Of a stretch of DNA of 20,694 nucleotides, positions 1-18,578 are shown one piece after another. The number at the start of each line of letters is the position of its first letter. Position 1 is the stretch's first letter. The stretch lies in IMG/VR virus record IMGVR_UViG_3300021964_000699, positions 1-20,694 of that record. One strand, written 5' to 3'. The translations under genes and the position numbers were made by a program. This DNA is from a virus. The notes below the pieces were generated by a model. It was not told the origin of the DNA. It did no database searches and saw only the letters and a list, made by a program, of their open reading frames with translations.

Positions 1-3000
1 TATCTAAACTGTATTACAATATCATCATTTTGTATTAAGTCGTTACAATTATTAAGAATAAATTTATTTTCACTGATTAAACTTACAAATTTATATCCTT
101 GAGATCTTGGATCAGTAATAAGATTTTCTATATCATTACAATTTAATCTACGCTTTGGCTTATAATTTTTAGGAATAGTAACTTTGTTCTGTACCCAGAA
201 ATAATATTTTGCACTAAAGTTTTGTGATATTTTATCGTAAACTAATTGTGTACTATATCGAGTATTTCCATATATGCTAGTACCACTTATACCTAATTCT
301 AAACCTTTATCAGTGTCGGCAAACTCGTCATATACCGATGGTATATACGGACTTTCAACCCACTCAAATATATCAATAGATGATCCATTAAGTAACTTAT
401 TCCAATTGCGTTTTTGAATATTTTCTGTTCCAAAGTAAGGATACGCTAGTCTTGCTGTATTAGTTGCCCACCACACTTCACCAACATGTTCTTTACCCCA
501 ATATCTTTTTGGATCTATTAGAAAATCATTTTCTAACCCTGTGTTATATACTGCTGGGTCAAATCCAACTTTATAATCAATTTCTTGCTCTGCTGGTCCT
601 GCAATTTTTCCTTGAAGTGGATCAATATAATCTAGTCTTGATATAAACTCATTTGTTCTTTTATTATAAAGAGTTATTCCAGAAATTTTATTTAAATCTA
701 CTGGTAATACTTGTTTTTCTAAAGTGGTCCACGATTTAGAATCAATATTTTTTCTAAAATCAACTACTGTACCCCTTGAATCAATATTTGACTGCTCTGG
801 CATACCAACATATATATGATTTTGAATACTATACAAGTTCTCGCCGAATGTTTGTTGTATTTGAGGATATATTATATTTTCTGAATATATTAAAGTATCT
901 TGAATATTTTCGTATACATAGATCACACCTTTATCAAGTATAACATTTCTAAACGTTGTAAACTTACCATCAAAATAAGTTTCTTGTTTATCAAAAGTAG
1001 TTGGAATAATTTGATCGCCATTTAAACTAGATATAATTAAATTAGATGAACCAAAATCTAATGAATGACCAAACTGTTCGGCAATTTCGTTTTGAGGAGA
1101 TTGCAATGTTTGATCAAGAACAAACTGTCCGCTAACTGCTTTGTATATGTACACTACTCCTTTGTTAATACCAAACTCATCATTTGTTGATGCACTAACA
1201 GCAAAATGTGTACCTGCTGTATTTAGACTTACATTCTCTCCCCATTTAGTATCTTCGTTTGGTGCATTAATAACCTGAGTTAATTGGAATTTATTATCGT
1301 TTTGTCTGTAGATTGCTATGCGCTGTTCTGTATAACTATCGGCTGCAACTAATAGTGCCTTTACTACTAAAATTTGGCCGTCGTCGCTAATGTCAAACGC
1401 TTGGCTAAAGTCACTAATATTAGCCGGGTCAAAAACATCTTCATCATATAAGTGCTGACCAGTTAGATTTGGAAGATACCCTAGATAATCTATTTTACTA
1501 TCTAAAGTTTTCCAATCAGTAGTAGTAAATGCTGCATCCTCAGCAATATTAGTCAGTGCTCGATATAATACATTATCTTTAAGAACAATATTATTTTCAG
1601 CGTAACTATATGTATTATCCCACTCACCCTGGTAATCACTATCTTTTCCATATTTCCAACTAATGTTTACCCAATATATAGGGTCTGTAGGTAGTACTCC
1701 ACTTTTAACTGCTCTAATAGCTTGATAATATTCATCTTTGTAGATAGTTATTTCACCAACATTGTATTCTCTAATCTGGAACGGACCGCTGAGATTTTCT
1801 AAATCATCAGTACCATGTCTGAATATTTCTATTTGTCCTGGATTTTCTCTACGTCCGGTATTTAAAGTTTCACTGTCTGCATCAACTCCGGAAGTTCCAA
1901 CTAATAGAGTATATGAATTGTCTGTTTGTATTAATCTAACTTTTCTTCCAAATTTTCTATCTTCAGCATTTTGGAAACTTGTTAAAGTTTTTTGTAATAG
2001 ATATGTATTATCTGGACGTCTTCTATAAATTGCTATCGCGCCAGAATTGTCTGGACCAGCATTACCCGTACTAACAGCTGACAAATTGTATATTTGTCTA
2101 TAATCTTTATTTAAAGAATAAGGAGGATTAGACGGAATCGATATTCCGCTCTCTACATTTTCATTAAAGAAATAATATTCTTCATCAATTAATGCAGGAG
2201 TATCTTCCCAAGATAATAATCCGTTTGTAAACGATACGCTATTTTCAAATACAAGAAGTTTACCTACTTGATTAGTTCCTAACGTAATACTATTTTCACT
2301 ATCTGTAACTTCGCCAAATACTCTATCAACATCGCCAGCGATTCTAATAGTTTCATTTGCAAGTCGTTTTAATTCATATTTTCCGATATTATTAAGCTCA
2401 TTGAATCTTCCGCTAAATGTAACTCCGTTATATTCGTCTAACACTTTTACATATACTCTAACTCTGTTAAAGTCTCTTTGTAGATAAACAACTTCTGCTG
2501 CACTAGTTGGTGCCAATGCACTTGCTGCTAGTCCGCCGCTGCCGTCACTAGCTGTTTGTACATCAACTATAACGTCACCTTGAGGTCTAGTTTGTAACAC
2601 TCCGCTTACATCATGATATAATCTAGGCTGTGGTTCAAAAGCAAATCCACTAGAATCAAATCTATTAAATTCAAAATCAATATATCCGTCCCACATGTCA
2701 CTTATAGTTAATTGTTTATTAATATCTTCGTCATCAATAAACACATTATCATAATCAATAGGCTTATTTTCTAAATCGTACAATTGGAAATTATAACTGT
2801 CTCCGATTGTTAGTCCATCGCTGAATGTTTTTCCTACTCTTACAACAAACAAATTAGATTGACAAGATCTCTCTGTTCCGTCTTGACCATCTTGTCCTGA
2901 CGGATCTCCTCTATAAGAAAGCTGTGTAATATAACTTGCACGGTTTTTATCAAGTACAAATGTTCCGATACTAGATACAGTATCTTGAATATTATAATAA

Positions 3001-6000
3001 TCATTAATATCTCTTGCAGACTCAGATAATTTTACATCAGCATACACTAATCCTCTACCAACATCATAAAAAGTTGATCCCACAGTATATGTAAATCCAT
3101 CACTGTTAGATAATTCAGTAGTAAAGCTACTTAAAGGTTTATCGTCTGTATTATAAGTTTTAATTAACCAATAACCGCCTATAGATGCACTAGTAGTATA
3201 TGTATTTTCACTAGTATATAATCCAATAAAATTATCTTCGTCATTATACAATTCTCCTGTGACATCAAATATGCCGTTTGTATTAGATACATAAATTACT
3301 GCACTATCTAATTTAGAAGCAACATAAACTACTTCAGCTCTGCCTGTCACTGTTGTAACAAAGTCGCCTACTTGAGGCAAAGAGATAAATGTTTCAATTT
3401 CTAATATTGAATCTACTTTATATATAATTTCATGAGTTGAACTTATCCAACTAGGTGTAATTTGAGTAATAGTATTGTTAAATGGTAATACTTCTTCTAA
3501 TGTTTCATTAGCATAACTACTCTTATTCCAATACAAACTAATAATATCACCTGCTGCTTCCTGACCAGCTGTAAAATTTCTAGATTTTGTTCCAAGATAC
3601 ATGTCAGCAGGCGCTCTAACCAAAATATGATCAGCAATACTATTTTCTAATCCAGGATTTCCTGATACTAATAATACTGTATCAGTAGAATCAGTGTCAG
3701 TGTTAGATATTAAATTTTGATAGTTATCAAAAGTAGAAAATCCTTGGCTTCCAGCTTCTGGAGAAATAGTTCTTAATGCTTGCCAAAAATTATCTCTGTA
3801 TTTGACAATATCGTTTTTTTGATATTCAATAGTTGGACTAAAGTTTCCAAGTAACTTTGTTTTAACATCTGATGCATTTGGAATGCCGACTACTATGTAT
3901 TCGCCATCAGGGCTAATATCAACAGAATCACCGAATCTAGAATTTGAAATATCTAAAAGATTTGTATCTGATGGATATTCTATTTCTTGGCTAATAACAA
4001 AATTACTATTTTCACTACTTCTTAAGTATACAAATATTTTTCCGTTTTCGTCATTTGGTGCTGCAACAACCATTGTCCTGTTATTTTTTGAAACTGCAAT
4101 ATTTTCACCAAATTCTTGATTTGTGCTAGTTATATCAGTTGTGTTTTGGATAGTCTGACGCTCAGAAAATACAGTATTATTTTCTAATACATTCCATGAT
4201 CCGTTTTCATAATTATTAACCCAAAATCTCTGATCATCATATTGCTTGTCTTGAATAATAGCATTTATTTCAGATATATTATTAATTCTTACTTCTCGTA
4301 ATTTAACTACTGCAAAAGATTGGGCATCAAATGTAGATACCTCGCTACCTGCTGCTATTAATATTTTGTTAAGGTTTGTTTTTTCAATATTATATAAACT
4401 TTCAACTCCATATTCTTCAGCATCTAGTATACCAATAATTTCACCTTCTTGTAAATTATTTTTTGTCCATTTATTAAGTGTAATTTCTGTAAGCTGATCA
4501 CCTTGATTAGTAAACTCTCCTGTTGAAGTTTCTGAGCTAATTGCTTTAAGGTCAGTGTCTATTATCTGATAAACTGTCCAGTCGTCTTTACCTGTTTCAA
4601 TTAACCAAATATAAGACCCTAGCTCTATTAAGTTAATATCTGTACCAGCTAATTCAGACTTATCATACGCAATAAACGTAACATTATCTTCGTTTACATA
4701 GCCGCCCGTCTTTAAGAACTCTTGCACAGTTGTGACAGGAAACGGAGAAGTATGTATATAGTCCTGTGGTTTATCGTGTACATCGTTAGGTAATAGTCTG
4801 TAAATTTTATCTATTTTAGTCGGATTTGAATTTGTTATTTCAAATATTTGAGGAGCTTCTTCTAGTTTCGAATCTGAAAGTTTATATTCAATTTGTACTT
4901 CATTATCAGTTGCACCGTACTGGCCTACTTGAATTGCCCATTCTTCAAATAGCTGCACCTTATCTTCTTCGTTACTAGATAACGAATCAAATAATTTAGT
5001 TACAGAATTAATAGTCCCCTTGTCTTGAATATATCCGTTGTAAAATTTAAACTGACTTATATCATCATTGATTATATTAGCAAGATACCTCCGTTTTTGA
5101 TAACCAACTAAATGCTGGGCAAGTTCTTGTTGAGATTCATCGAACCCTGCACTATCTAAATCATAGAAGTCCATAAATTGATTTATTTTATAATCAAAAT
5201 TTGTAAGTAGCTTTTTCTCTGGTTCTTTGCTTAAACGATACCATGAACTTTCATTAAAAATATTTGATCCTGGAATATTCTGTACAGCAGTATAATAATA
5301 TTGGCGGTGCTTTACTAAATCGCCAATATTATAATCTTTATATTCTTCCCATACTTTATAAGAAGCATCGTCAAACACAAATCCCGGAACATTAAATCCT
5401 CCCTGCCAGTCTGAGGTTCTATATGCATTAATTTTTAATCGATCCTGTCTATAACCTGTAGACGGTTGGTAGATAATATCGTTAAAGATAGTTTTATTAT
5501 CAAATAATACCACATGTTCTTTTTGCACAATCGGAAGAGCAACATGATACAATCCATGATCCGAATCAACTACTTGTATCCCGAAACTATTTTGATCTCT
5601 TAATATACTATTAAATTTTAAATCTAAAGGTTGTTTATTTTCATCATATATAGAATAATTATAAAAAGGATCTGTCAAGTCGTCAACCACATGATAGTCT
5701 CTATCAAAATATAATCTATTTGCAGAAGGACTCAAAGTTATAACTGTTCCTGATGTCCATCCTTGTGTGGTCCAGAATAAAAATTCTTTTGCAGAGTCTT
5801 GCCAGTTGTCAATTTGTGATCCGTTCTCTGTAAATACAAAATCAAATCCTAAATCTTTTAAACGTTCTGCATACCCTAGCATAAATGTGATTACTTCTTG
5901 ACTATTAGAAAACTTATGGCCATAAGGAATACGCAAAACATTTTGTTTAGAAAAGTTTTTATCAAATTCTGCAGACTTTCCTCCAGTTATAGGGGCTTGT

Positions 6001-9000
6001 TTCAGAACTGCTAGATTATCTATTTCAAAATTTTGAGTAGAAGTAAACGATTCTTTAACTCTGTAGTATTTTCCAGCATTCTCTATAAGCTGACCTTTTA
6101 AATATGGTGTTCTTTCTCTCCACTCATTTGCAGTTTCAGTAATACCTCCAACTGTTATTACAACACGTTTTGATCCTGACTTTGGAGCGTAATATTCAAA
6201 ATAAGGATTATCTTGACTATACCCTCGAATAATAAATCCAGTTGCTAGTTTTTCAATAATTAATCCGCTATATGTAATTAAATCTGTTGGTGAACTTGTA
6301 TTCAAGAATACATTATAATTTTCTTGCGGTATAAAGATACCATTCTCGCTTTGATCTTCTACAATACTACGGCTATCAAGTATTACATTAACTTTGTCTT
6401 TATCTGTAAATCCAGCTAACTTTACCCCTAGTTGATTTTGGATGCTCTTCAATTGTAGCTGATAGTCGTCATACACCTTTAACACATTAGAGGAAATTAA
6501 ATTAGAAATATAATTTACAAGTCCCGAAGTCATAACACGCTGATCACTTTGTGTTGTATTTGGAAGTAAGATTTTTTCTAGTTGTATAACCTTACTAGTA
6601 TTATTATAAATGTACTGATTGGCAAAGTTTTTTTGAATTCTGCTTACATCAAATCCTAATCCAATTGTTTCTGCTGGTTTATTAAGCACCATTGATTCTA
6701 AAATACTAAACGGATATTCTGAACTGCGGCGCCAGGCATTTTCAACCGGTGCCCAATCGCCAAAACTAAAGTTATTAGTAGTAGAACGTAACAGAAAATT
6801 ATCTACTATGTTTGTTCGTAACGGACTTTTTAATAATCCTTTACCGTCAACTGGTATACATTTTGATAGTCCAGGTCTTGCATAGTTGTTATTATAACGA
6901 ATTTTTCCAGGTTCAGCAATCTTACCTTCTTCAAGATCTTCCCATAACAATAAGTTATCTCCTGTATAAGGAGCAGGGCCATATACTGTGTTCCACCATG
7001 TAGGTTTGATTGTAAATCCTAACATTTCCCAAGGAGCAGTATGTGGCCTGTCAGTATCAAATATATTTTGATAGATTCCTCTCCAAAATCCTGGCAATGT
7101 ATTACCATTAAATGACTTCATAGTACTATAATTAAATGTAAACTCATCTTGGCGGAGATAGAAGTAATTATCGGTATAATCATTATCTAGTATTGATAAC
7201 CAATCAGCAAAACTAGGTAAGAGAGAGTTATCAATTTCCTCTCTAGTAAATTCGTTATTTCTAAATTCGCCACCTTTAAACTTAGTTACGTCAATAATAC
7301 TACTATCATATTCAATCTTAATATTATTAAATATTCTTTTTTCTAATTCAAGTATTAAATTGTCTCGATAATCACTATAACATCTTATATAACTGCCGTC
7401 ATGCCCTCTAACAAACGACTGTCCTTGAGGATATGCATCAAAAAGTGTTGTATCAATACCTGCGTGTGTTCCTCCCGTATTGGGCATATACAGTATTATA
7501 TTTGACCCGTTAAACATGTGCTTATGAGCTGTTCCGGTGCCGCCGTTGGCTAAGTCTGCTGATTCAGCAGATACCTTGTCTGTGTATAATGGATAAAACC
7601 ATCCAATTTTTCCTTCAAATTTATACCCTTTTTCAGACTGTGCATATATCTTGTATGCTACTTCATCTGTTGGTGATTCTCCAGCAGCTGGTCTATAAGT
7701 GTCGTCGTATATAAGTTCAGGTAAAAATTTAGGATATAACCCTAATTTTGTCGGCGTCGGTGGAATAAATGTTCCATCAGTTGATGGATATTCGTATATC
7801 GTAATAGTATCGCCGACAACTAGATTATCAGCAAATATGTTTACAAATCCGTCTGTTGAAAAGTTATAATCTATACTGTAAGATAGCTGTACACCGTTTA
7901 GATAAACATTTACACTTTTGTTAGACAGATTATCTAAATCAAAATCTTCTGACAAACTATAAAATCTAGATCTAGTATCTAATACTTCATGTGTTGTAAT
8001 TGTGGCTGCTTCATAGCCAACCATATCACTAAAGTAGAAAGATTCTGTTTTTTGTTTATCCTTATTAAGTTCTGTCAATACTAAATCAACATGTTGCTTT
8101 GTTTCAGTATCTATACCTAAATTAACAGCAGTTTCTATAAAGTTTCTTTTAAATCTAGAATATTCTCTTCTACTAAACTTTAAAGCATTAACAATATTGT
8201 ATTCTTTATTTGTTACATGGTACGCAGATAAATTAATCGGTCCACTGTGCTTTACAAATCTTTTTCCAAATTTATCAATGTCGCCCAAGTCTCTAAGGTT
8301 ACTAGTTCCAGGATATGATCCAGAAAAGTTTCTTAAATCTTCGACCATAGTATCTACATGATCAATTACTTCGCCTAATGTAAATTCAGTAAAGTCCTCA
8401 TTTTTTGGATTTCTTTCTAAATTATTTGGAAATTCGTAATATCCGTTTTCATTTTTATTAGCTTGTGATGTTTTTGATTTAATAACAACAAAATCACCTT
8501 CGTTTAAATCTTCAGCAAAAGTAATGAATAATTTTTTATTTGTTCGTTCAATAGTATAATTGTTAACAAGAAAACTATTTACAAAAACATTAATTGTTAT
8601 ATCTGTTAGCGTTCCTGCATCTAAATAAGTATCTACTTCAAAAGTATTTAAATTACTTTCTTCAACTGCATATTCTCTTATTACCTTTTGAACACTTTTA
8701 GTAGGCTTATTAGAGAAGCCATTGATCCATTCAAAAGTTGTTAAGTCTTTATATTTTTTCATAAATCCAGGGTTAATGGATTTTCTATATAATTCAGTTC
8801 CTGATTCATATTCAAAAATATCAGTTAGTAAATTAAATTCAAAGACTATATCGCCGCTATTATTAATATTTCTGTAAGTTAACGGAAACCCTAATTCGCT
8901 ATCATTATTGCTTGTACCTGCTTTATAACTAAACAGTTTTGTACCTATAAATGTACTAGCATCATATGTATTAGTGTCCCCAAAACTTATTTTGTCTACT

Positions 9001-10853
9001 CCAAATACATCAAACAACGGTTGCTGATTAACTTTTGTCTTTTCTTGAGACACTTTCCAGCTCGAAGTTGCTCCGTCATAATAATAACTTTTGCCTGCGT
9101 TCTTTTGTCCCTGAGTAACAAGTACTGTTTCTAAATCTTGTGGAGTCGTATCTTCTGATTCAACTAGATTTATTTGTCGACGATTACCGATTGTAATAAA
9201 TTTAACTACATAAATTTTACCGTTAACTAATTTATCTGTATCTGCAGAAAATAGAATACGCATATTATCTGCTAGATCTATTCCGTCTACATTATACCCT
9301 ATTTGACCTTCTATTGTAGAAAATACATCAGTAGTTACATTATCAATTAAGTCAACATCTGTTTTTGCAAAACTACCAAACTGGAATAACTTGATACCTG
9401 CTTCAAATTCAATAATAGGTCGTTTAGCTCTCGATTCTTCATTAATTGGGGTTTCATTATTATTATACTCAAAACTTTTTGTAATAATAGATTTATGGAA
9501 CCATTTATTGTATCTAGTCCATGCATTTCTATCTAAACTAGCACGATTAACTACAATATAATCCTTATCTACTGTATAACTCTTAGCATTACTAAATGGC
9601 AATGTATCGAAGTTATCTGTATCAAATGGTATAAACTGATTTGACGAATATGCCGAAGGAATAATTAAGTCCTTGTTATTAACAAGTCTAATTTTGTCCC
9701 CAACACCTTCTACATACCATTCGTCATTTGCATATGTTTCCGGAATTACTTGTCCTCGGAATCTTACTTTAAATCCATTTGACAACTCAACACCATTGGC
9801 ACTAGTATAAGTTTTCTTTCCTAATATATCAGTAGATACATCTAGAAATGTATTTTCTTCAATATCTGAAACTTTAATATATCCACTAGTATCTATATCG
9901 TTCTTACTAATGTAGTACAAACGGTCAGGTGCATTTTCTGGAATACTAAATTCAATAGTCCCGTTTTCTAAATAAACAGTAGAAACTTCTTCACCTTCTT
10001 CTCCAAACTTCCTAATCCCATCTGGATAAATTGTACTTACATTTTCATCTTCGTCAAATGTTACACTACCTCCACTCGGTAATACAATAAAGTCACCTAG
10101 ATCGTAATTTGCATCTTCTTCATCATACAATGCGCCATCGTACAATCCATTAGATCGTATCCCTTCTGAACCTGCAACTAGAATAGCTGCACCAGGAGTA
10201 AATGTCCTACTGATTGCAAATGCAATAGGATGTCCAGGTGTATCTACTTCAAATCTATATGTCTGCCCTCTAAATAATTGCAAGGATGGATTTTTTGTAA
10301 ATCCATCATTGAAAACATAAGAAGTATTATCGTCGTCCTCAGCTAAAGTTACAGTATAAGTGCTTACTACTTCTTTTGACTGGCCACGTATGTCAATAGT
10401 TTGCGGACCATTAGGTAACCAATAATATTCACGAAAATTTACAAATTTATCCCAATCAATATTTGGGTTCCACGCATATGTTTCTTGACTATTTAATCGA
10501 CTATGATTAGTTGTGTTTGCGCCAAAAACACTTAATTGGCCAATATAATCATTATAATCTTTGTAAAAATCAATATTGTTAAACTCGTCTTTAATCACAA
10601 TACTAGGCTCTAATTGGTAATTTTCTCGTTGAGCCGATACATCGCCAATATAGTTGTCTGAAGTTTTGTATGCTTTTGCTGTTTTTCTACCAAAATATCC
10701 TTGTATTTTTTCTGCTTCGCCTGGTTGAATAAGCTGGTCTAAAGTAGCTTGTAAGAATTTTCTATTTGCATTTGTTCTATAGAACTGCGGTAGGAAATCG
10801 CTACCAGTAACCTTTTTATTTTGGTTGTTTTCGCTGTCATCATTATAAGCCAT
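1..10853 (-). CDS. Giant baseplate or fibre-like virion protein, 3' end beyond the window
   Basis: The frame opens at ATG 10853, overlapping the gp6 stop by one base, and has no stop through codon 3617 at the left edge. The first 30 residues include MAYNDDSENNQNKK and GSDFLPQFYRTNANRKFLQA. Residues about 150-260 hold a cupredoxin-like strand set (NPSLQLFRGQTYRFEVDT, then PGHPIAFA). Around 1150-1400 are segments that look conserved in giant proteins of marine T4-like phages (GHDGSYI...DYRDNLILELEKRIFNNIK; FGDWAPVENAWRR at 1365). Seven FG-GAP-like repeats begin at residues 2248, 2307, 2968, 3149, 3204, 3261 and 3336. Five CBM5/12-like modules lie at 1578-1613, 1835-1875, 2338-2380, 3026-3066 and 3078-3116. 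No signal peptide or membrane segment was seen. It occupies the place of T4 gp7 (1032 residues) but is at least 3.5 times longer, and I see no clear gp7 similarity. A wedge protein, an adhesion protein or a fusion of both roles are all possible. Confidence 0.85.
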   Translation of the reverse strand, partial: MAYNDDSENNQNKKVTGSDFLPQFYRTNANRKFLQATLDQLIQPGEAEKIQGYFGRKTAKAYKTSDNYIGDVSAQRENYQLEPSIVIKDEFNNIDFYKDYNDYIGQLSVFGANTTNHSRLNSQETYAWNPNIDWDKFVNFREYYWLPNGPQTIDIRGQSKEVVSTYTVTLAEDDDNTSYVFNDGFTKNPSLQLFRGQTYRFEVDTPGHPIAFAISRTFTPGAAILVAGSEGIRSNGLYDGALYDEEDANYDLGDFIVLPSGGSVTFDEDENVSTIYPDGIRKFGEEGEEVSTVYLENGTIEFSIPENAPDRLYYISKNDIDTSGYIKVSDIEENTFLDVSTDILGKKTYTSANGVELSNGFKVRFRGQVIPETYANDEWYVEGVGDKIRLVNNKDLIIPSAYSSNQFIPFDTDNFDTLPFSNAKSYTVDKDYIVVNRASLDRNAWTRYNKWFHKSIITKSFEYNNNETPINEESRAKRPIIEFEAGIKLFQFGSFAKTDVDLIDNVTTDVFSTIEGQIGYNVDGIDLADNMRILFSADTDKLVNGKIYVVKFITIGNRRQINLVESEDTTPQDLETVLVTQGQKNAGKSYYYDGATSSWKVSQEKTKVNQQPLFDVFGVDKISFGDTNTYDASTFIGTKLFSYKAGTSNNDSELGFPLTYRNINNSGDIVFEFNLLTDIFEYESGTELYRKSINPGFMKKYKDLTTFEWINGFSNKPTKSVQKVIREYAVEESNLNTFEVDTYLDAGTLTDITINVFVNSFLVNNYTIERTNKKLFITFAEDLNEGDFVVIKSKTSQANKNENGYYEFPNNLERNPKNEDFTEFTLGEVIDHVDTMVEDLRNFSGSYPGTSNLRDLGDIDKFGKRFVKHSGPINLSAYHVTNKEYNIVNALKFSRREYSRFKRNFIETAVNLGIDTETKQHVDLVLTELNKDKQKTESFYFSDMVGYEAATITTHEVLDTRSRFYSLSEDFDLDNLSNKSVNVYLNGVQLSYSIDYNFSTDGFVNIFADNLVVGDTITIYEYPSTDGTFIPPTPTKLGLYPKFLPELIYDDTYRPAAGESPTDEVAYKIYAQSEKGYKFEGKIGWFYPLYTDKVSAESADLANGGTGTAHKHMFNGSNIILYMPNTGGTHAGIDTTLFDAYPQGQSFVRGHDGSYIRCYSDYRDNLILELEKRIFNNIKIEYDSSIIDVTKFKGGEFRNNEFTREEIDNSLLPSFADWLSILDNDYTDNYFYLRQDEFTFNYSTMKSFNGNTLPGFWRGIYQNIFDTDRPHTAPWEMLGFTIKPTWWNTVYGPAPYTGDNLLLWEDLEEGKIAEPGKIRYNNNYARPGLSKCIPVDGKGLLKSPLRTNIVDNFLLRSTTNNFSFGDWAPVENAWRRSSEYPFSILESMVLNKPAETIGLGFDVSRIQKNFANQYIYNNTSKVIQLEKILLPNTTQSDQRVMTSGLVNYISNLISSNVLKVYDDYQLQLKSIQNQLGVKLAGFTDKDKVNVILDSRSIVEDQSENGIFIPQENYNVFLNTSSPTDLITYSGLIIEKLATGFIIRGYSQDNPYFEYYAPKSGSKRVVITVGGITETANEWRERTPYLKGQLIENAGKYYRVKESFTSTQNFEIDNLAVLKQAPITGGKSAEFDKNFSKQNVLRIPYGHKFSNSQEVITFMLGYAERLKDLGFDFVFTENGSQIDNWQDSAKEFLFWTTQGWTSGTVITLSPSANRLYFDRDYHVVDDLTDPFYNYSIYDENKQPLDLKFNSILRDQNSFGIQVVDSDHGLYHVALPIVQKEHVVLFDNKTIFNDIIYQPSTGYRQDRLKINAYRTSDWQGGFNVPGFVFDDASYKVWEEYKDYNIGDLVKHRQYYYTAVQNIPGSNIFNESSWYRLSKEPEKKLLTNFDYKINQFMDFYDLDSAGFDESQQELAQHLVGYQKRRYLANIINDDISQFKFYNGYIQDKGTINSVTKLFDSLSSNEEDKVQLFEEWAIQVGQYGATDNEVQIEYKLSDSKLEEAPQIFEITNSNPTKIDKIYRLLPNDVHDKPQDYIHTSPFPVTTVQEFLKTGGYVNEDNVTFIAYDKSELAGTDINLIELGSYIWLIETGKDDWTVYQIIDTDLKAISSETSTGEFTNQGDQLTEITLNKWTKNNLQEGEIIGILDAEEYGVESLYNIEKTNLNKILIAAGSEVSTFDAQSFAVVKLREVRINNISEINAIIQDKQYDDQRFWVNNYENGSWNVLENNTVFSERQTIQNTTDITSTNQEFGENIAVSKNNRTMVVAAPNDENGKIFVYLRSSENSNFVISQEIEYPSDTNLLDISNSRFGDSVDISPDGEYIVVGIPNASDVKTKLLGNFSPTIEYQKNDIVKYRDNFWQALRTISPEAGSQGFSTFDNYQNLISNTDTDSTDTVLLVSGNPGLENSIADHILVRAPADMYLGTKSRNFTAGQEAAGDIISLYWNKSSYANETLEEVLPFNNTITQITPSWISSTHEIIYKVDSILEIETFISLPQVGDFVTTVTGRAEVVYVASKLDSAVIYVSNTNGIFDVTGELYNDEDNFIGLYTSENTYTTSASIGGYWLIKTYNTDDKPLSSFTTELSNSDGFTYTVGSTFYDVGRGLVYADVKLSESARDINDYYNIQDTVSSIGTFVLDKNRASYITQLSYRGDPSGQDGQDGTERSCQSNLFVVRVGKTFSDGLTIGDSYNFQLYDLENKPIDYDNVFIDDEDINKQLTISDMWDGYIDFEFNRFDSSGFAFEPQPRLYHDVSGVLQTRPQGDVIVDVQTASDGSGGLAASALAPTSAAEVVYLQRDFNRVRVYVKVLDEYNGVTFSGRFNELNNIGKYELKRLANETIRIAGDVDRVFGEVTDSENSITLGTNQVGKLLVFENSVSFTNGLLSWEDTPALIDEEYYFFNENVESGISIPSNPPYSLNKDYRQIYNLSAVSTGNAGPDNSGAIAIYRRRPDNTYLLQKTLTSFQNAEDRKFGRKVRLIQTDNSYTLLVGTSGVDADSETLNTGRRENPGQIEIFRHGTDDLENLSGPFQIREYNVGEITIYKDEYYQAIRAVKSGVLPTDPIYWVNISWKYGKDSDYQGEWDNTYSYAENNIVLKDNVLYRALTNIAEDAAFTTTDWKTLDSKIDYLGYLPNLTGQHLYDEDVFDPANISDFSQAFDISDDGQILVVKALLVAADSYTEQRIAIYRQNDNKFQLTQVINAPNEDTKWGENVSLNTAGTHFAVSASTNDEFGINKGVVYIYKAVSGQFVLDQTLQSPQNEIAEQFGHSLDFGSSNLIISSLNGDQIIPTTFDKQETYFDGKFTTFRNVILDKGVIYVYENIQDTLIYSENIIYPQIQQTFGENLYSIQNHIYVGMPEQSNIDSRGTVVDFRKNIDSKSWTTLEKQVLPVDLNKISGITLYNKRTNEFISRLDYIDPLQGKIAGPAEQEIDYKVGFDPAVYNTGLENDFLIDPKRYWGKEHVGEVWWATNTARLAYPYFGTENIQKRNWNKLLNGSSIDIFEWVESPYIPSVYDEFADTDKGLELGISGTSIYGNTRYSTQLVYDKISQNFSAKYYFWVQNKVTIPKNYKPKRRLNCNDIENLITDPRSQGYKFVSLISENKFILNNCNDLIQNDDIVIQFR
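744..4166 (-). other. Split FG-GAP-like beta-propeller region of the giant protein
   Basis: Within residues about 2230-3370 seven repeats follow the FG-GAP pattern (Phe-Gly-x-Ser/Asn-hydrophobic, polar turn, then a Val-rich strand and Gly-x-hydrophobic-x-hydrophobic-Tyr/Phe). Examples are FGENIAVSKNNRTMVVAAPN with GKIFVYLR (2248), FGDSVDISPDGEYIVVGIPN (2307), WGENVSLNTAGTHFAVSAS with GVVYIYK (3204), FGHSLDFGSSNLIISS (3261) and FGENLYSIQNHIYVGMP (3336). Seven is the usual blade number for such propellers. About 640 residues separate repeat 2 from repeat 3. Most copies lack the full Asp-rich calcium loop of integrin repeats, so they are closer to the bacterial and phage type. That all seven form one propeller is inference. 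Confidence 0.65.
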
Positions 10854-13800
10854 TAGTAACTATATCCTCCGCTACCACTCGATCCGCTTGACCCGCTTGA
10901 TCCGCTTGAAGAACTATTCGTCGAAGTTTCTGTAGTATAAGTAGAACCTGTACTTGCACTACTTTGTATTGCTGTATAGTTCGTATTATCACTTGATTGT
11001 ATAACCGTTCCTGAAGTTTGTAAAGAAGCTGCTGTAATTTCATCAATAATTTCAATATCATTAACAGTTGCTCCGCTTATTAGTATTTCATTTGGTTCAG
11101 ATTTAATTTGAAATAAGCTACCAAATGACTGTGTTTCCTGTTTCGGAATCATTAAGAAACTTACTAGCTTAGGACTCAGTTGAGAAAGGATATATGCACT
11201 TAGTTCTTGGAAGTAGAAAGTTTCTCCAAAGTCCCAATTTTCTAATGCAAAAAATCTATCAATTGCACTGATAATGTCTGCTTTCAGTTCATTATTATTA
11301 GTAACTAAATTATTATTTTTAACTATTTTAAAGATTACTTGCAAATTTTCTTTTGCCTTTTCACCAAACAGAATTTTATAAGTTGTAGGATGATAAATTA
11401 CTTCATCGCTAATTGACTTAATTGCATTTATTTTAGGTCCAAATTGTCTGTATAATTCGTCATTGCTCGGCGGCAAAGGCTTTATACTATCATTATCTGT
11501 TTTAAGCCAATTTCTTAGTTGACTATCATATGATTTTGTTAGTAAGAATGTATCTATTATATTACTTACTGCTGGATCAATTCGATAATTGCTATCTGCA
11601 ACATGTGCGTAGTGGAATTTAAGATTTCGTCTACCTTCGTATACAAGATAATCAATTATCAAAGATGTGTTATTAGCCGCTTTGTTTAATTTTTTAAATA
11701 CTTTTTCTTCAAGTAGATAGAAAATTTGTCCTTCTAGTCTAGAACTGTAAGGTGAAATTGCTGCTTCATTTTCTACAATTAATATAGTGTCATCTAAATT
11801 AGCAAAGTATCTATAGTTTTCTACGCCGTCGGATGTAAAATATCTTTCTTGAAAAATTAACTTATCTTCATTTTCTACATCAGAATTATTAAAGTCTACC
11901 AAATTGTCAAATAACTCTGGATCGTCAACAACCCCATCATCGTCACTGTCTAAATAAGTAATAACAATTTTTTTAGTATCAACGTATCCTTCTTTGTCTC
12001 TATACGCATCTTGTATGGTCCACTGAAAATCTCTTGTATAAGATTCTGTACTGCCTTGTACATTATTAATATTCAAAATATTGATTTGGTCTCTATATGT
12101 TTTTCCTGTTTTTACATCATAAACTTTATCACTGCTATCAAAGAAAAACTTTATTTCAGTATCGCTTTCAAATATAAATCTTAAATTTTGATAAAATACT
12201 TCATAAGAGCTACCGTCTGTTTTAAACCTCAGTAACCAACTTGCATCAAGATTTTGTGCGCTGCTATCTCCAGTTTTGCCTACAGAAAACTCATTTAGTG
12301 TATTAATATTTTCAGCTAGTACTAACTTCCATTCTCTTTCATTAATATCATACCTTAAAGCATAATCATTAAGATTGAATGTTTGATCAATTATTTGAGA
12401 CTTTACGTCATCATTCAACGATCTGCTAAATTTAGGTATAATTTCTTGTAATACAGCATTAGTTGGAATATCGTCGTTTAATGTTATTGCACCAAACCCA
12501 TTATCATCAACATTTGTTCCGTCGCCTGTTACAGATATAACTTTACTCCAGATATAATCTTTACTATTTTTTTCAAGAGCGCCGGTTTCGGGTATTTCTA
12601 CTAATTGGTTCTTACGATTAAAGTAATACCCTTTCGGTGCAATAAATTTAATTAATGATCCCGCTTCAATAAACTTTAGAGAATTTGCTGTAAACACACC
12701 AACTTGTATAATTGTATCGTCGACATCATTTATATTACCTGTATAATAATTTGTAGCTTGTGTAGCAGACTTCCAAGAAACATTAAGATCACTAATAATA
12801 GTTCTAGGAAATTTATCTAAGTAAAAGTTTCTTAAATATATGCTAGAAGTTATCTTTTCAATAGAATTGTTTATAATTCCTTCAATATCACTTTGTGTAT
12901 TAAAGCTGAATTTAGTTTTTTCAACAAATTCTTCTTTATAGATTATCCCGTCTGTACTAAAAAGATCAGTATTACTATACTTTCCACTTGAATCTTTTAA
13001 ATCAAAATTTCTACTAATTCCTGCACTTATTCTGTTAGTGCTTTTTGTTTTAATAATATCTTGACTAATTGCAAATGGACCAATATTATAATCTTCTCCA
13101 GTAATCAATCTATTTTGTGTATAGTATGTTGCAGGAGCATTTGTTCTAATTTCGTCGTTAGTTTCTGTCGGCGATGAATTAGCAACAGTGTACTTTAGCT
13201 CGAGTCCAAATGTAAGAGTTTCTAAATTTCCGCCTCGTCCTTGATATGGTATTTCTACGTTAACAGTTCCAATAGAACTAGGTGTAATTACCATATTTCT
13301 ATTAGCACTAGTTCTATAATATATTTTGAAATTTCCGTTTGGTAGATTACCAAAAACACCATCACTAAATATTAAACTAATTCTGTCACCTACTCTAGTG
13401 TTTACAGCAAATACTTCTGTTATTCCTTGAAATAAGTTATTGTAAATAATGTTGTTACCTTCAACACTGTCTATCTTTGTCCAAGGAGTTGTTTCGACTC
13501 CAGCAGTATCTACACCGTATAGCCAAACATCCGAATCATTAATGTCAGTTGAGTCGATTGCTACTGCTTGATTAGGTGTAGGATTAGAAACTGTAAATGA
13601 TCCGTCTTCTAACTTGCCCTGACGGAAGTGCATAAAGAATCCAGTATTAATACTAGCTGCTCCTTGGCCATCATCTCTAAACAAAAATGCAGGGCTATTG
13701 CCAGGTAGCGGTGCTTCTTCTACTAAATCCTGATTCTGTATGTCTACACTAGTAACTTCAAATCGTGTAGTAGACCCTTCAATACGCTTTGTGAACGGGT

Positions 13801-14444: not shown

Positions 14445-14882
14445 TTAATTTATGCCGACGTTTTGGTCAAAAGTAAATCGCAACGTATCTGCAATATTAT
14501 AGTTAAGAAATGTAACAGTTGCTTCTAAATTTATACCATGTTCAAACGTATCAACTATTACATCACTTGCTTGTAATCTAGGGTCATAATTTATAATATC
14601 TGTTACATTGTTTATAATAGCATCCCTAACTTCTTGTGTAAATGGTTCGTAAAGTAGATCCCAAATAACACATCCAAATTCTGGATCACTTAATTTTTCT
14701 CCTTGGCGAATATGAAAATGATTTATTAGATCTTGTTTTACAAGCTCAAAATCGTAAAGTGTCCAATCATTACTATTTGAATATACCGAAGAAAATCCTC
14801 TGTATGCTTTACCGGAAGATGCAGACGAAGGCACTGCTGGAACCGTTACTCTCTTATATAAATTTTTTTCTAAATTGCTCAT
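14445..14882 (-). CDS. gp25: Baseplate wedge protein gp25
   Basis: Member of the GPW/gp25 family, the small wedge component that sits beside gp6 and starts sheath assembly in T4-like tails (TssE in type VI secretion is a relative). With the start chosen here it is 145 residues, near T4 gp25 (132). The family core is plain: an N-terminal sheath-like strand segment (RGFSSVYSNSNDWTLYDFEL), then HFHIRQGEKLSDPEFGCVIW with the glycine-proline-Phe-Gly turn, then LLYEPFTQEVRDAIINNVTD and a C-terminal strand pair ending at TFDQNVGIN. An in-frame ATG at 14924 would add 14 residues (MTALRLRFHKVKYN) overlapping gp5 by 29 bases; the ATG at 14882 is preferred because a TAAGG site precedes it and MSNLEKNLYKRV is a natural beginning. 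The gap to gp5 is then 13 bases, and to gp6 49 bases. Confidence 0.93.
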   Translation of the reverse strand: MSNLEKNLYKRVTVPAVPSSASSGKAYRGFSSVYSNSNDWTLYDFELVKQDLINHFHIRQGEKLSDPEFGCVIWDLLYEPFTQEVRDAIINNVTDIINYDPRLQASDVIVDTFEHGINLEATVTFLNYNIADTLRFTFDQNVGIN

Positions 14883-14893
14883 ATTGTATTTAA

Positions 14894-14898
14894 CCTTA
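14894..14898 (-). promoter_or_regulatory. Ribosome binding site that decides the gp25 start
   Basis: On the minus strand the gp5 stop and the next two bases read TAAGG, 11 bases before the ATG at 14882. The gp5 stop codon therefore forms part of the gp25 ribosome site, which suggests translational coupling and favours 14882 over the upstream ATG at 14924. Confidence 0.55.
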
Positions 14899-17379
14899 TG
14901 AAACCGTAGGCGTAGAGCTGTCAACAGTATCAGTAGACGCTAATGTTGTTCGAGGTTGTGATTCTTGCCATTGTGCTAGGTAACGTAACCCGTCTGCTTT
15001 TTCGTTTTGAAATCTTTTAACTACAGAAGCTCTTACTGCCGGGGTGCTTCTTCCAAAGTATCCACTTCCGTTATTTTTACCTCTTTCATTATAAACTGCT
15101 TCGATAATAGCAGCATCACTGGGATTAGTTGTACCAAGTGTTTTGAACGCTCGATCAAAGATTTTTGCACATCCTCCAGGACCGTGCTGAACACTTGTAC
15201 TCCAAATAACATCACCAACAATAGGTGATCTAGATGCTAAGTCTACACCAGTTCTGCGTTTTATCGATCGTAATCCGCCACCATAATATTTGTTAGCAAT
15301 ATATTCGTGCTGTGATTCGGCTGCGGCATGATCTGCCATTAGAGTTTTCCAAGTATTTTTAAATGTTTCTGTGCCTTGACGAGCAGCACTATCGCCGCCT
15401 GCACGGTTAAGTGCTTCTGCAACTTGTGGAGCATTCGTACTAGCCCATGATAAGTATTCGCCCATCGCGCCTGTTTTTGCTGCTAACTGATACTGACCAT
15501 AGCTCCAGCCTCCGGTACTATCCCATCCAATTGCTACCGGACCTTCTCTGCCGGATTCGTATTGTGCGCTAAGTGTTCCTAAACGATAAGTACCATCATC
15601 TGGTAATGCTACACTAGAACTATAATTTGATTGCGGAGTAACACCTACGCCAGAACCTGTTCCGCCTGCTCTACTATCGATATTTCCAGATCCGATATTT
15701 CCGCCACTTCCGGAAACATAAGCACTACAATTTCTTGATCCTTTATTTTTAGCAAACGTGTCTGGTGTAATTACTCTATCAGCAGTATCCAATCCTCCCG
15801 GTGCTTCTCTATCAGTATCAGGTTTTTTATAAGCCAAAGGATTCATATTTTCATGATGAGGCCAAGGTTCATGCTGCGGTGCTCTAGTTAGAATACTTTG
15901 ATATGCAACTGGTTGATAATTTCCTGGAATGATGTACGGCAATGTTACAGTTGCTAATGGAGTAACCTTTGCTGCTTCTTGAGCAGGAGCTGCTTTAGGA
16001 CCATTCATATGAATATATGTTGCTGTTTCTCTATGCTCTCTAGAACTACTAATATGGGTAGATCCTTGAGTAGTCAATCTGTTATCTTGACCACTATTCA
16101 GCTGATAAAATCTTCCATTTGAATTTAAATGATCTCTATTAATTCCAACATGCTGATCTCTACCAACTGTTATTTTTGAGTCTTTTCCTACTTGTAAATT
16201 ATAATCGTGTTGTGCTTCAAACTGTATACGTCCGCTGTCAAGTCCTCTACTATCAGTGTCGGCACCTTTACTATATCTAGCAGTAGCTTTCATGTTTATA
16301 TTTCTACCTGCTTCAAAATTTATGTCTCGTTCAGCCGTAAAATTAAAATCATTTTCAGTCATAATACTGATACTATCTTGAGCATGAATATCTATTTTGC
16401 CGTCACTAGTAAGTTCTATCCAAGCAGTTCCTCTAGCATTTGATATGTAAATTAAATCTTCTGAATTATGAAGTAGTATCTGATGACCTGTTCTAGTTCT
16501 AAATCGAAGTAGCTCATTCTGAGGTATTGTTTCGTCGCCCCCCGGATCACCTATTTCTTTATTAATATATTCCGGAGGACCATCTTCAGGATGCGTTTTT
16601 CTAATAAAGTTAGCATCTCCGTCATCCATTACAAAGCTGTGTCCGCCTAGTCTATTAGCAGGAATACTAAGTTTATCAGGTGCAGAGCCAACTTCTACTT
16701 TAGGAGATCCTGGGCGCCTATCACGCTGCCCGGGAGTATTTACACCAAATACTGCACTTGGAATTTCTCGTCTAGCACTTGTAGTTGTAGTTCCTCTAAC
16801 TTCATCAAATATTAACCCTTGAACTTCGAGTACATTAGTGAAGTCTTTATTATACGGCTTTTTAAAAAATGTTGGATCAACTAACTCGCCGGTTTCTAAC
16901 TTTTTGTTATATTCGCCCACAGGTAACTTTGCACCTTGCAAATTTTGAGGAGTCTGATCTGTAGTACGTTCAGTACTTGCTCTCCCATCTGGAACCATAA
17001 AATTCATATAATCATCAGGAATACAACCAATCCAATATCCCATATTGATGTCGCCTTCGGCAAAAACACACAAAACCTTTGTGCCAATGTCTGGCGGCAC
17101 CATCCACATGCCATAGCTTTTTTGTGTATACTCATATCCGTCATTATCTGTTAATCCTTTACTCGGACTAACTCCATAAAACGGCATAAGATATCTAACG
17201 TTTGCTAATTGCCCAGTACGTTCAGGTGTTGATCCCGAAGATGTATATTTTAATATTTCAACTTCTAAGCCTCCCATATACTTTCTGTCAAGATGATTTA
17301 CTACAATTGCTTCATAAGGTCCTGTATCCTTTAGTACGTTTCTACTAGATGGGGTTCTTGTATAATTTCCTGATGCCAT
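14896..17379 (-). CDS. gp5: gp5-like baseplate hub/needle protein with C-terminal peptidoglycan hydrolase domain
   Basis: 827 residues; in T4 gp5 (575) trimerises on gp27, forms the cell-puncturing needle and digests peptidoglycan. Residues 20-130 fit the N-terminal OB-fold (MGGLEVEILKY; YGMWMVPPDIGTKVLCVFAEGD; GYWIGCIPDDYM). Residues about 300-465 fit the VgrG/gp5 beta-helix: short repeating strands such as IELTSDGKIDIHAQDSISIM and DINFEAGRNINMKA. No lysozyme domain is visible between them (130-300), where T4 has it. A Gly/Ser linker (555-590) leads to a lysozyme-like domain at about 595-805 with LSAQYESG (candidate catalytic Glu608), WSYGQYQLA and WSTSVQHGPGG. The family of this last domain is recalled from tail-associated phage and VgrG-like hydrolases and is less sure than the gp5 call. 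The ATG at 17379 follows an AGGA site; the gap to the upstream gene is 26 bases. The TAA supplies part of the gp25 ribosome site. Confidence 0.88.
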   Translation of the reverse strand: MASGNYTRTPSSRNVLKDTGPYEAIVVNHLDRKYMGGLEVEILKYTSSGSTPERTGQLANVRYLMPFYGVSPSKGLTDNDGYEYTQKSYGMWMVPPDIGTKVLCVFAEGDINMGYWIGCIPDDYMNFMVPDGRASTERTTDQTPQNLQGAKLPVGEYNKKLETGELVDPTFFKKPYNKDFTNVLEVQGLIFDEVRGTTTTSARREIPSAVFGVNTPGQRDRRPGSPKVEVGSAPDKLSIPANRLGGHSFVMDDGDANFIRKTHPEDGPPEYINKEIGDPGGDETIPQNELLRFRTRTGHQILLHNSEDLIYISNARGTAWIELTSDGKIDIHAQDSISIMTENDFNFTAERDINFEAGRNINMKATARYSKGADTDSRGLDSGRIQFEAQHDYNLQVGKDSKITVGRDQHVGINRDHLNSNGRFYQLNSGQDNRLTTQGSTHISSSREHRETATYIHMNGPKAAPAQEAAKVTPLATVTLPYIIPGNYQPVAYQSILTRAPQHEPWPHHENMNPLAYKKPDTDREAPGGLDTADRVITPDTFAKNKGSRNCSAYVSGSGGNIGSGNIDSRAGGTGSGVGVTPQSNYSSSVALPDDGTYRLGTLSAQYESGREGPVAIGWDSTGGWSYGQYQLAAKTGAMGEYLSWASTNAPQVAEALNRAGGDSAARQGTETFKNTWKTLMADHAAAESQHEYIANKYYGGGLRSIKRRTGVDLASRSPIVGDVIWSTSVQHGPGGCAKIFDRAFKTLGTTNPSDAAIIEAVYNERGKNNGSGYFGRSTPAVRASVVKRFQNEKADGLRYLAQWQESQPRTTLASTDTVDSSTPTVS

Positions 17380-17405: not shown

Positions 17406-18578
17406 TTAAAATCCCATGTCCTGTGCTCGTTTCGGCAATCTCTTACTATCATACTGTGGAGCTGGACCTGCATAGTATGTTCCGTCTGCACGGCGTAATC
17501 TAACTAACTTTCTTCCGTTTTCTCTAGCAGATCTTATATCTCTACCTGCTTGACGTCTACTTTCAATTATATCTGTACGAGATGCTTTCACAGCGCCTTT
17601 AGAATCTAATCTGTTAGATAGTTTTCCTGGTGGCGGTGGTGGCGGAGTTTGCCCTTTAGAATCTAATCTATTAGAAGCTACTCCAGTTTGGGCAGGTGGT
17701 GTCCAGCCCCTTGTATCATATGAATCAGCATCATCAGTATAATCTACTGTCTGATCTGGTTGTCTAGCAATTTCAGCTGTTGTTGCATTATTAACTGTTG
17801 GACTAGAATATTCTTGCCTTGCTTGTCTAAGAATAGCATCATCGTACTGTTCGGTACTGGTATCATTAGGTGAAAGATTAGGCGGTGGTGTTGACACTTC
17901 AGTTTGTTGTGTTGCTAATCCAGATGATCCAGCAGTGTTATTTGTTTCTGCTCCGCTGCCGCCGCCAGTTCCTGAAGCAATACCTTTATAAAGTTTTTTA
18001 CCCGTTAATACATCGTACCTATCATCATACATTTCAGTTACTTCGTAAGAATAAGGACTGTCACCTGTTATTCTAGGTTGCTGTCCTACAGGTGCATAAG
18101 CTCCGCCAGGAGATGGACCTGTTAAAGGAAGTGGTTGAGTAATGTTACCAGTTAATGATTGTCCATAACTATCTAAAGAAATATTTGCACCGTTGGCTAT
18201 AGCAGTATCTAGATTTTGTTGTAAATTATTAAGTTTTTCTGAAAAGTTTCCAGTGCCTTCTTGTAAAAAATTATCTACTATATTGTCAACTTCCGGCAAC
18301 TTAATATTACTAGGTATAGAAGAAGCGTTTGGTATTACTCCTCTAGCTGTAAGATAATCTCTACGCTGAGCAGGCGTCATTGACTTTAATTCTTCAACTT
18401 CTCGTTTTGGCCAGATGTTATCTTTACTTATAGCACCAATTGTGCTGTTATCATATGCAGATTGTAATGCTTGATATGCATTAGATACCGGCAATGCTTC
18501 GTCTAAAGCACTAGGCCTACGTAATCCTCGTTGTTGAATATCTTCGTCATTAGCATCTAAAGGTAAGTTTGCTGACAT
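17406..18578 (-). CDS. Hypothetical low-complexity structural protein between hub and gp5
   Basis: 390 residues, not recognised as any T4 protein. The ATG at 18578 has a good ribosome site (GGAG, 6 bases before it) and lies 11 bases after the hub stop. The N-terminal 130 residues look mostly helical and charged (for example SKDNIWPKREVEELKSMTPA at 51-70). Residues 140-300 are rich in Gly, Pro, Ser, Thr and Asn and are probably disordered. The peptide SNRLDSKG occurs twice (302-309 and 321-328), flanking six prolines (312-317). The last 60 residues are strongly basic and end in QDMGF. There is no signal peptide or membrane segment. Its place between the putative hub and gp5 suggests a tail or baseplate accessory part, a tail-length or assembly factor, or a chaperone for the hub-needle complex; none of these is shown by the sequence. 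That the gene is real is well supported by tight packing, ribosome site and length. Confidence 0.75.
   Translation of the reverse strand: MSANLPLDANDEDIQQRGLRRPSALDEALPVSNAYQALQSAYDNSTIGAISKDNIWPKREVEELKSMTPAQRRDYLTARGVIPNASSIPSNIKLPEVDNIVDNFLQEGTGNFSEKLNNLQQNLDTAIANGANISLDSYGQSLTGNITQPLPLTGPSPGGAYAPVGQQPRITGDSPYSYEVTEMYDDRYDVLTGKKLYKGIASGTGGGSGAETNNTAGSSGLATQQTEVSTPPPNLSPNDTSTEQYDDAILRQARQEYSSPTVNNATTAEIARQPDQTVDYTDDADSYDTRGWTPPAQTGVASNRLDSKGQTPPPPPPGKLSNRLDSKGAVKASRTDIIESRRQAGRDIRSARENGRKLVRLRRADGTYYAGPAPQYDSKRLPKRAQDMGF
17596..17675 (-). repeat. Two direct copies of a 23-base sequence flanking a poly-proline run
   Basis: On the plus strand CCTTTAGAATCTAATCT begins at 17596 and again at 17653, 57 bases (19 codons) apart. 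Each copy continues to about 23 bases with one mismatch. Read on the minus strand they encode the two SNRLDSKG copies in the 390-residue protein, with the six-proline run between them. The near-identity at DNA level suggests a recent internal duplication. Confidence 0.8.

Follow-up and report, generated by a model that had tools for sequence, protein, structure and literature searches.

Directly behind the baseplate wedge gene gp6, where phage T4 carries gp7, the virus record studied here, from a marine tailed phage, opens a reading frame that fills over half of the DNA and runs off its end. Which protein does this frame encode, and could a product of such size serve as the gp7 of its baseplate? 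The window—the whole stretch of DNA analysed—is the entire 20,694-base record, so the missing end of the giant gene had to be inferred from relatives.

The frame (3..10853, minus strand) begins at an ATG and comprises 3617 codons with no stop among them; the window edge cuts it while it is still open. The junction with gp6 reads GGAGG-12 nt-TAATG, with base 10853 common to the gp6 stop (10855-10853) and the giant-gene start (10853-10851). This bears out the size and position given in the initial annotation. The accompanying description of the gene as ‘fused’ to gp6 is wrong, as the two frames overlap by one base only and encode two separate proteins. GGAGG is the likely ribosome site. Of 45 distinct giant-gene junctions in relatives, 36 retain it at a distance of exactly 12 nt, which exceeds the usual spacing. 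Moreover, the first codon of the Gly-Gly pair at the end of gp6 is GGA in all 25 junctions printed, compared with a GGA share of only 38% among glycine codons elsewhere in gp6; this preference fits a ribosome site, with the codon counts coming from sequences related to one another. In 78 of 80 relative loci, gp6 lies directly 5’ of the giant gene; of the remaining two, one begins at a contig end and the other has a longer gp6. A scan for promoters and terminators returned signals no commoner than in shuffled sequence.

Further upstream lie a gp25-type gene and a hub gene. The gp25-type frame is listed from a TTG, and an in-frame ATG 14 codons on is the likelier-looking start. Between the hub and an upstream virion protein, positions 17406-18578 encode a protein of 390 aa that matched nothing in PHROG and, above cut-off, nothing in Pfam. 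One relative (L075, 4666-9930) encodes a gp6 of 1,754 aa that is C-terminally extended ahead of the giant gene.

Table 1 Features of the window. Residue numbers refer to the giant protein.
Feature	Position	Strand	Residues	Details
Core resumption	3..734	-	3374-3617	common to all jumbo homologues; cut by window edge
Giant virion protein gene, phrog_10938	3..10853	-		first 3617 codons of expected ~5,190
FG-GAP-like repeats 3-7	735..1967	-	2963-3373	counted by pattern and by eye
Module block inserted in core	735..4436	-	2140-3373	~1,230 aa
CBM5/12-like module	1479..1631	-	3075-3125	by eye
CBM5/12-like module	1656..1784	-	3024-3066	weak
CBM5/12-like module	3699..3851	-	2335-2385	
FG-GAP-like repeats 1-2	3834..4127	-	2243-2340	Pfam FG-GAP_2 E 5.9e-6, above cut-off
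KG[T/I] motif KFYNGYIQDKGTINSVTKLFDSLSSNE	4968..5048	-	1936-1962	best match to P-SSM2 gp7
CBM5/12-like module	5211..5378	-	1826-1881	fold match
Most conserved core block of the family	5340..7433	-	1141-1838	
CBM5/12-like module	5979..6122	-	1578-1625	
N-terminal ‘FLPQFYRTNANRKFLQATLDQL’ segment	10674..10799	-	19-60	proposed N-terminal helices of gp7-type core bundle, from position
TAATG	10851..10855	-		overlap of gp6 stop and giant-gene start; retained in 76/77 relatives with readable start
gp6-type baseplate wedge protein, 1180 aa	10853..14395	-		phrog_10646 E 8e-289; phrog_219 E 1e-19
GGAGG	10866..10870	-		likely ribosome site in final gp6 codons, 12 nt 5’ of ATG
gp25-type wedge protein	14445..14924	-		Pfam GPW_gp25 E 8e-9
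gp5/VgrG-type hub	14896..17379	-		C-terminal T6SS VgrG3-like domain, Pfam E 8.7e-35

Giant genes at the gp6-adjacent site are already known from many jumbo phages and cyanophages. The full-protein profile phrog_10938 matched the window protein at E 5.3e-281, in five stretches, and its homologues stand behind gp6 in RaK2 (3,326 aa), 121Q (3,323 aa), PA5oct (3,857 aa) and Atu_ph07 (4,449 aa), as does a giant homologue of 3,771 aa in Vibrio phage 2.275.O. The order gp5-gp25-gp6-giant is common to the window family, RaK2, 121Q and PA5oct, while Atu_ph07 has gp6-giant. The giants of RaK2, 121Q, phAPEC6, PA5oct and Atu_ph07 are homologous to the window protein over several core blocks and likewise follow gp6. 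Downstream of the giant gene, relatives encode a small protein (phrog_11259) and then collar- or fibre-type proteins, and PA5oct has genes of the same type there. With about 5,190 aa, as opposed to 3,323-4,449 aa in RaK2, 121Q, PA5oct and Atu_ph07, the window gene is a new, longer subfamily within the known phrog_10938 giants. No PA5oct-like relatives emerged when viral contigs were scanned for them, and literature searches yielded no paper treating the giant protein by itself.

The protein had been proposed to be part of the virion, in the gp7 position, and its homologues support this. In phAPEC6, gp245 (381.88 kDa), which adjoins the wedge protein gp244, was detected in virions by mass spectrometry with 17 unique peptides (PMC7247149); its size and its position beside gp244 led us to take it as a homologue. 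PA5oct gp355 is flagged ESI-MS/MS in its record note. Presence in virions is thus known for homologues, and supports a virion role for the window protein.

Is the giant, then, a gp7? In T4 the order is gp6-gp7-gp8, with overlapping genes, and the window giant resembles T4 gp7 (phrog_964) in gene position, in overlapping frames and, tentatively, in a short KG[T/I] motif. With 1,032 aa, T4 gp7 is five times shorter, and its profile misses the giant family. The cyanophage gp7 (phrog_2885) comes closer: P-SSM2 has the order gp25-gp6-gp7-gp8, with a gp7 of 5,195 aa so annotated behind gp6, and this protein is matched by PHROGs as long as 6,136 positions. Like the window giant, it is very large, follows gp6 and contains many beta-rich modules, and the KG[T/I] motif may be common to both. 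The two differ in that KG[T/I] lies near residue 210 in P-SSM2 gp7 and near residue 1944 in the window giant, and beyond this motif there is no significant sequence match between them.

Profile-profile comparison identified KFYNGYIQDKGTINSVTKLFDSL (residues 1936-1962) as the best-scoring segment against cyanophage gp7. Slices with the motif reached pairwise E-values of 0.0026-0.0093, against 0.5-0.7 for reversed controls; as single-pair values selected after viewing several slices, they are suggestive only. The motif corresponds to T4 gp7 735-753 and also links the cyanophage and T4 proteins, the T4 gp7 profile matching P-SSM2 gp7 at E 8e-5. Against T4 gp7 alone, the motif residues scored 17.6 versus 18.9 for the reversed control, and 16.8 versus 14.5 in another run, which gives no clear separation from the control. 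In a one-sided search, the giant protein matched neither phrog_964 nor phrog_2885, and when the profile of residues 1-160 was compared with gp7, nothing exceeded the reversed control. A search of five whole jumbo records and three long marine contigs with the T4-gp7-family profile returned no match, giant gene included. A collinear match of residues 2488-2514 to T4 gp7 775-802 (E 0.015; control 0.31) was not used as evidence, because it falls inside a block that RaK2-like phages lack and is likelier chance or a shared loose beta-motif.

Structure comparisons were run alongside. A PDB sequence search with the whole giant protein and two profiles gave nothing relevant, and PDB sequence and fold searches turned up no solved member of the giant family. 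AlphaFold models spanned residues 1120-2180 and 1826-2140, with the helices around KG[T/I] at low confidence (pLDDT about 32-36 for the longer model and 53-58 for the shorter). Foldseek searches with these models retrieved CBM-type folds and family members only, and no gp7. Of the wedge role originally suggested for the protein, the position stands; homology to T4 gp7 is weak, amounting to one short motif that matches cyanophage gp7 only (pairwise E 0.003-0.01). The slice comparison with gp7 proposed in the initial annotation was suggestive at KG[T/I], and structure prediction produced no match to gp7.

Together, we consider the giant gene to be probably a greatly expanded gp7 counterpart, that is, a wedge subunit of a T4-type baseplate. 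We favour this reading because of the gp6-giant order, the collar- or fibre-type genes downstream in relatives, the homologues in virions, the suggestive KG[T/I] match to cyanophage gp7 and the failure to find any other gp7-family gene in the five jumbo records and three marine contigs. The nature of the gp7 chain also argues for it: this member of the wedge core bundle varies widely in size, from 242 aa in XM1 to 1,032 in T4 (PMC10457771), and binds fibres, having been called a fibre-binding hotspot of re-engineering (PMC8894135). XM1 gp17, far smaller at 242 aa, and the gp7-like part of AlgoCIS Alg12 share the proposed wedge-core-bundle and fibre-docking role with the giant, as compared through papers only.

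The strongest competing explanation makes the giant a peripheral protein, such as a skirt or a fibre platform, and leaves the gp7 role to an unrecognised protein or to an enlarged gp6 (1,180 aa versus 660 in T4). It draws on the absence of significant gp7 homology and on weak T7-fibre and DUF2460 matches in the C-terminal part, which lies outside the window and was read in a relative (L086). However, the tight overlapping gp6-giant pair mirrors gp6-gp7 of T4 and cyanophages, and the sole motif match falls on the gp7 core motif, such that we rate this explanation as possible yet clearly improbable.

What, then, accounts for the length? Jumbo homologues have in common the core blocks at residues 13-148, 339-1058, 1141-1838, 1885-2139 and 3374 onward. 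At the site of the ~1,230-aa insertion, RaK2 and 121Q have ~90 aa, whereas Atu_ph07 has ~1,500 aa. In the window protein, this block holds part of the set of five CBM5/12-like modules, along with seven FG-GAP-like repeats as counted by our own pattern and reading by eye; about seven such repeats would close a beta-propeller, a fold that the block may have. A search for DNA repeats inside the giant gene found short, chance-like pairs only.

The CBM5/12-like modules invite the thought that the protein grips chitin-like or capsule glycans of the host surface at adsorption, and a sugar-binding role had indeed been put forward. Pfam CBM_5_12 scored above cut-off (E 1.3e-7 for the whole giant protein), the Y and W of the fold core are retained, and Foldseek matched a modelled module to the chitin-binding domain of chitinase A1 (1ed7; prob 1.00, TM 0.74 over 44 residues, E 0.42), although E-values of the CBM-type fold matches were only 0.06-0.6. 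Yet chitin binding by CBM5/12 uses an adjacent aromatic pair, Y-W or W-W (PMC8449059), and such a pair is absent from all five modules as well as from 20 aligned sequences of one module. A sugar-binding role is therefore not supported, and we hold it to be unlikely. Structural use of the modules appears likelier, because Foldseek also placed CBM-type folds in structures of the Milano baseplate and the 7-7-1 fibre, an occurrence that also speaks for the gp7 counterpart. The gp6 homologue of Vibrio phage 2.275.O (L101, 20903-24766) is itself annotated with a CBM5/12 module, implying that such modules enter gp6 too.

That the frame represents a real gene follows from its relatives. IMG/VR contains 404 stretches encoding relatives of the giant protein, and a single frame is kept by all 80 relatives examined, across the region that each covers. 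Compared with two relatives, dN/dS per 400-codon block was 0.05-0.22, with synonymous sites near saturation. A chance open frame is excluded on these two grounds, and the gene is under purifying selection along its whole length. The nearest complete relative closes at 5,187 aa, other stop-reaching relatives at about 5,110-5,350 aa, and most of them share a conserved ‘FLRAGT..LPE’ C-terminal end. The complete protein is hence expected to measure about 5,190 aa, of which the window would carry about 70%. For one contig (G001; L080, L087), frame lengths of both 7,175 and 5,136 aa were obtained, the longer probably a tool quirk; the stop position as read in the sequences agrees with 5,136 aa.

A protein this large and modular might be a polyprotein, cleaved after synthesis into several virion proteins, and the peptide coverage of the phAPEC6 product is only 7.6%. 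The phAPEC6 table nevertheless gives one 382 kDa product, and family scans brought up no protease domain, so that cleavage seems very unlikely. Finally, a metagenomic contig whose frame is cut by the contig end could unite several genes through a chimaeric assembly or a frame artefact, but relatives already refute this virtually beyond doubt: dozens of independent contigs, as well as isolate genomes, carry the same open frame, and it is under purifying selection throughout.

For the gp7 counterpart favoured here, a working model can be outlined. Translation of the giant would be coupled to that of gp6, so that both wedge chains are made together. Helices near residues 19-60 may join with the KG[T/I] helices near 1936-1962 into a split core domain, which would pack with two gp6 chains as the third chain of a (gp6)2-gp7 unit. 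The beta-modules of the insertion and of the C-terminal part (FG-GAP-like, CBM5/12-like and fibre-type) could spread over the outer baseplate, provide a docking and bracing surface for the collar and fibre proteins encoded just downstream, and pass fibre movement on to the sheath. More speculatively, and with the odds rather against it, the gp7 core may be split by about 1,880 inserted residues, with one chain running from the core bundle to the baseplate rim and back, and with residue ~2140 as a slot for module blocks swapped between lineages.

Marine and jumbo phages commonly encode a giant protein at the gp6-gp7 site, but most such proteins bear the label ‘virion structural protein’ and no assigned role. 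If they could be linked to the gp7 chain, the function of one of the largest phage genes would be explained, and the wedge unit would emerge as a frame to which phages attach new outer parts. The proposed slot near residue 2140 offers a concrete comparison between phage lineages.
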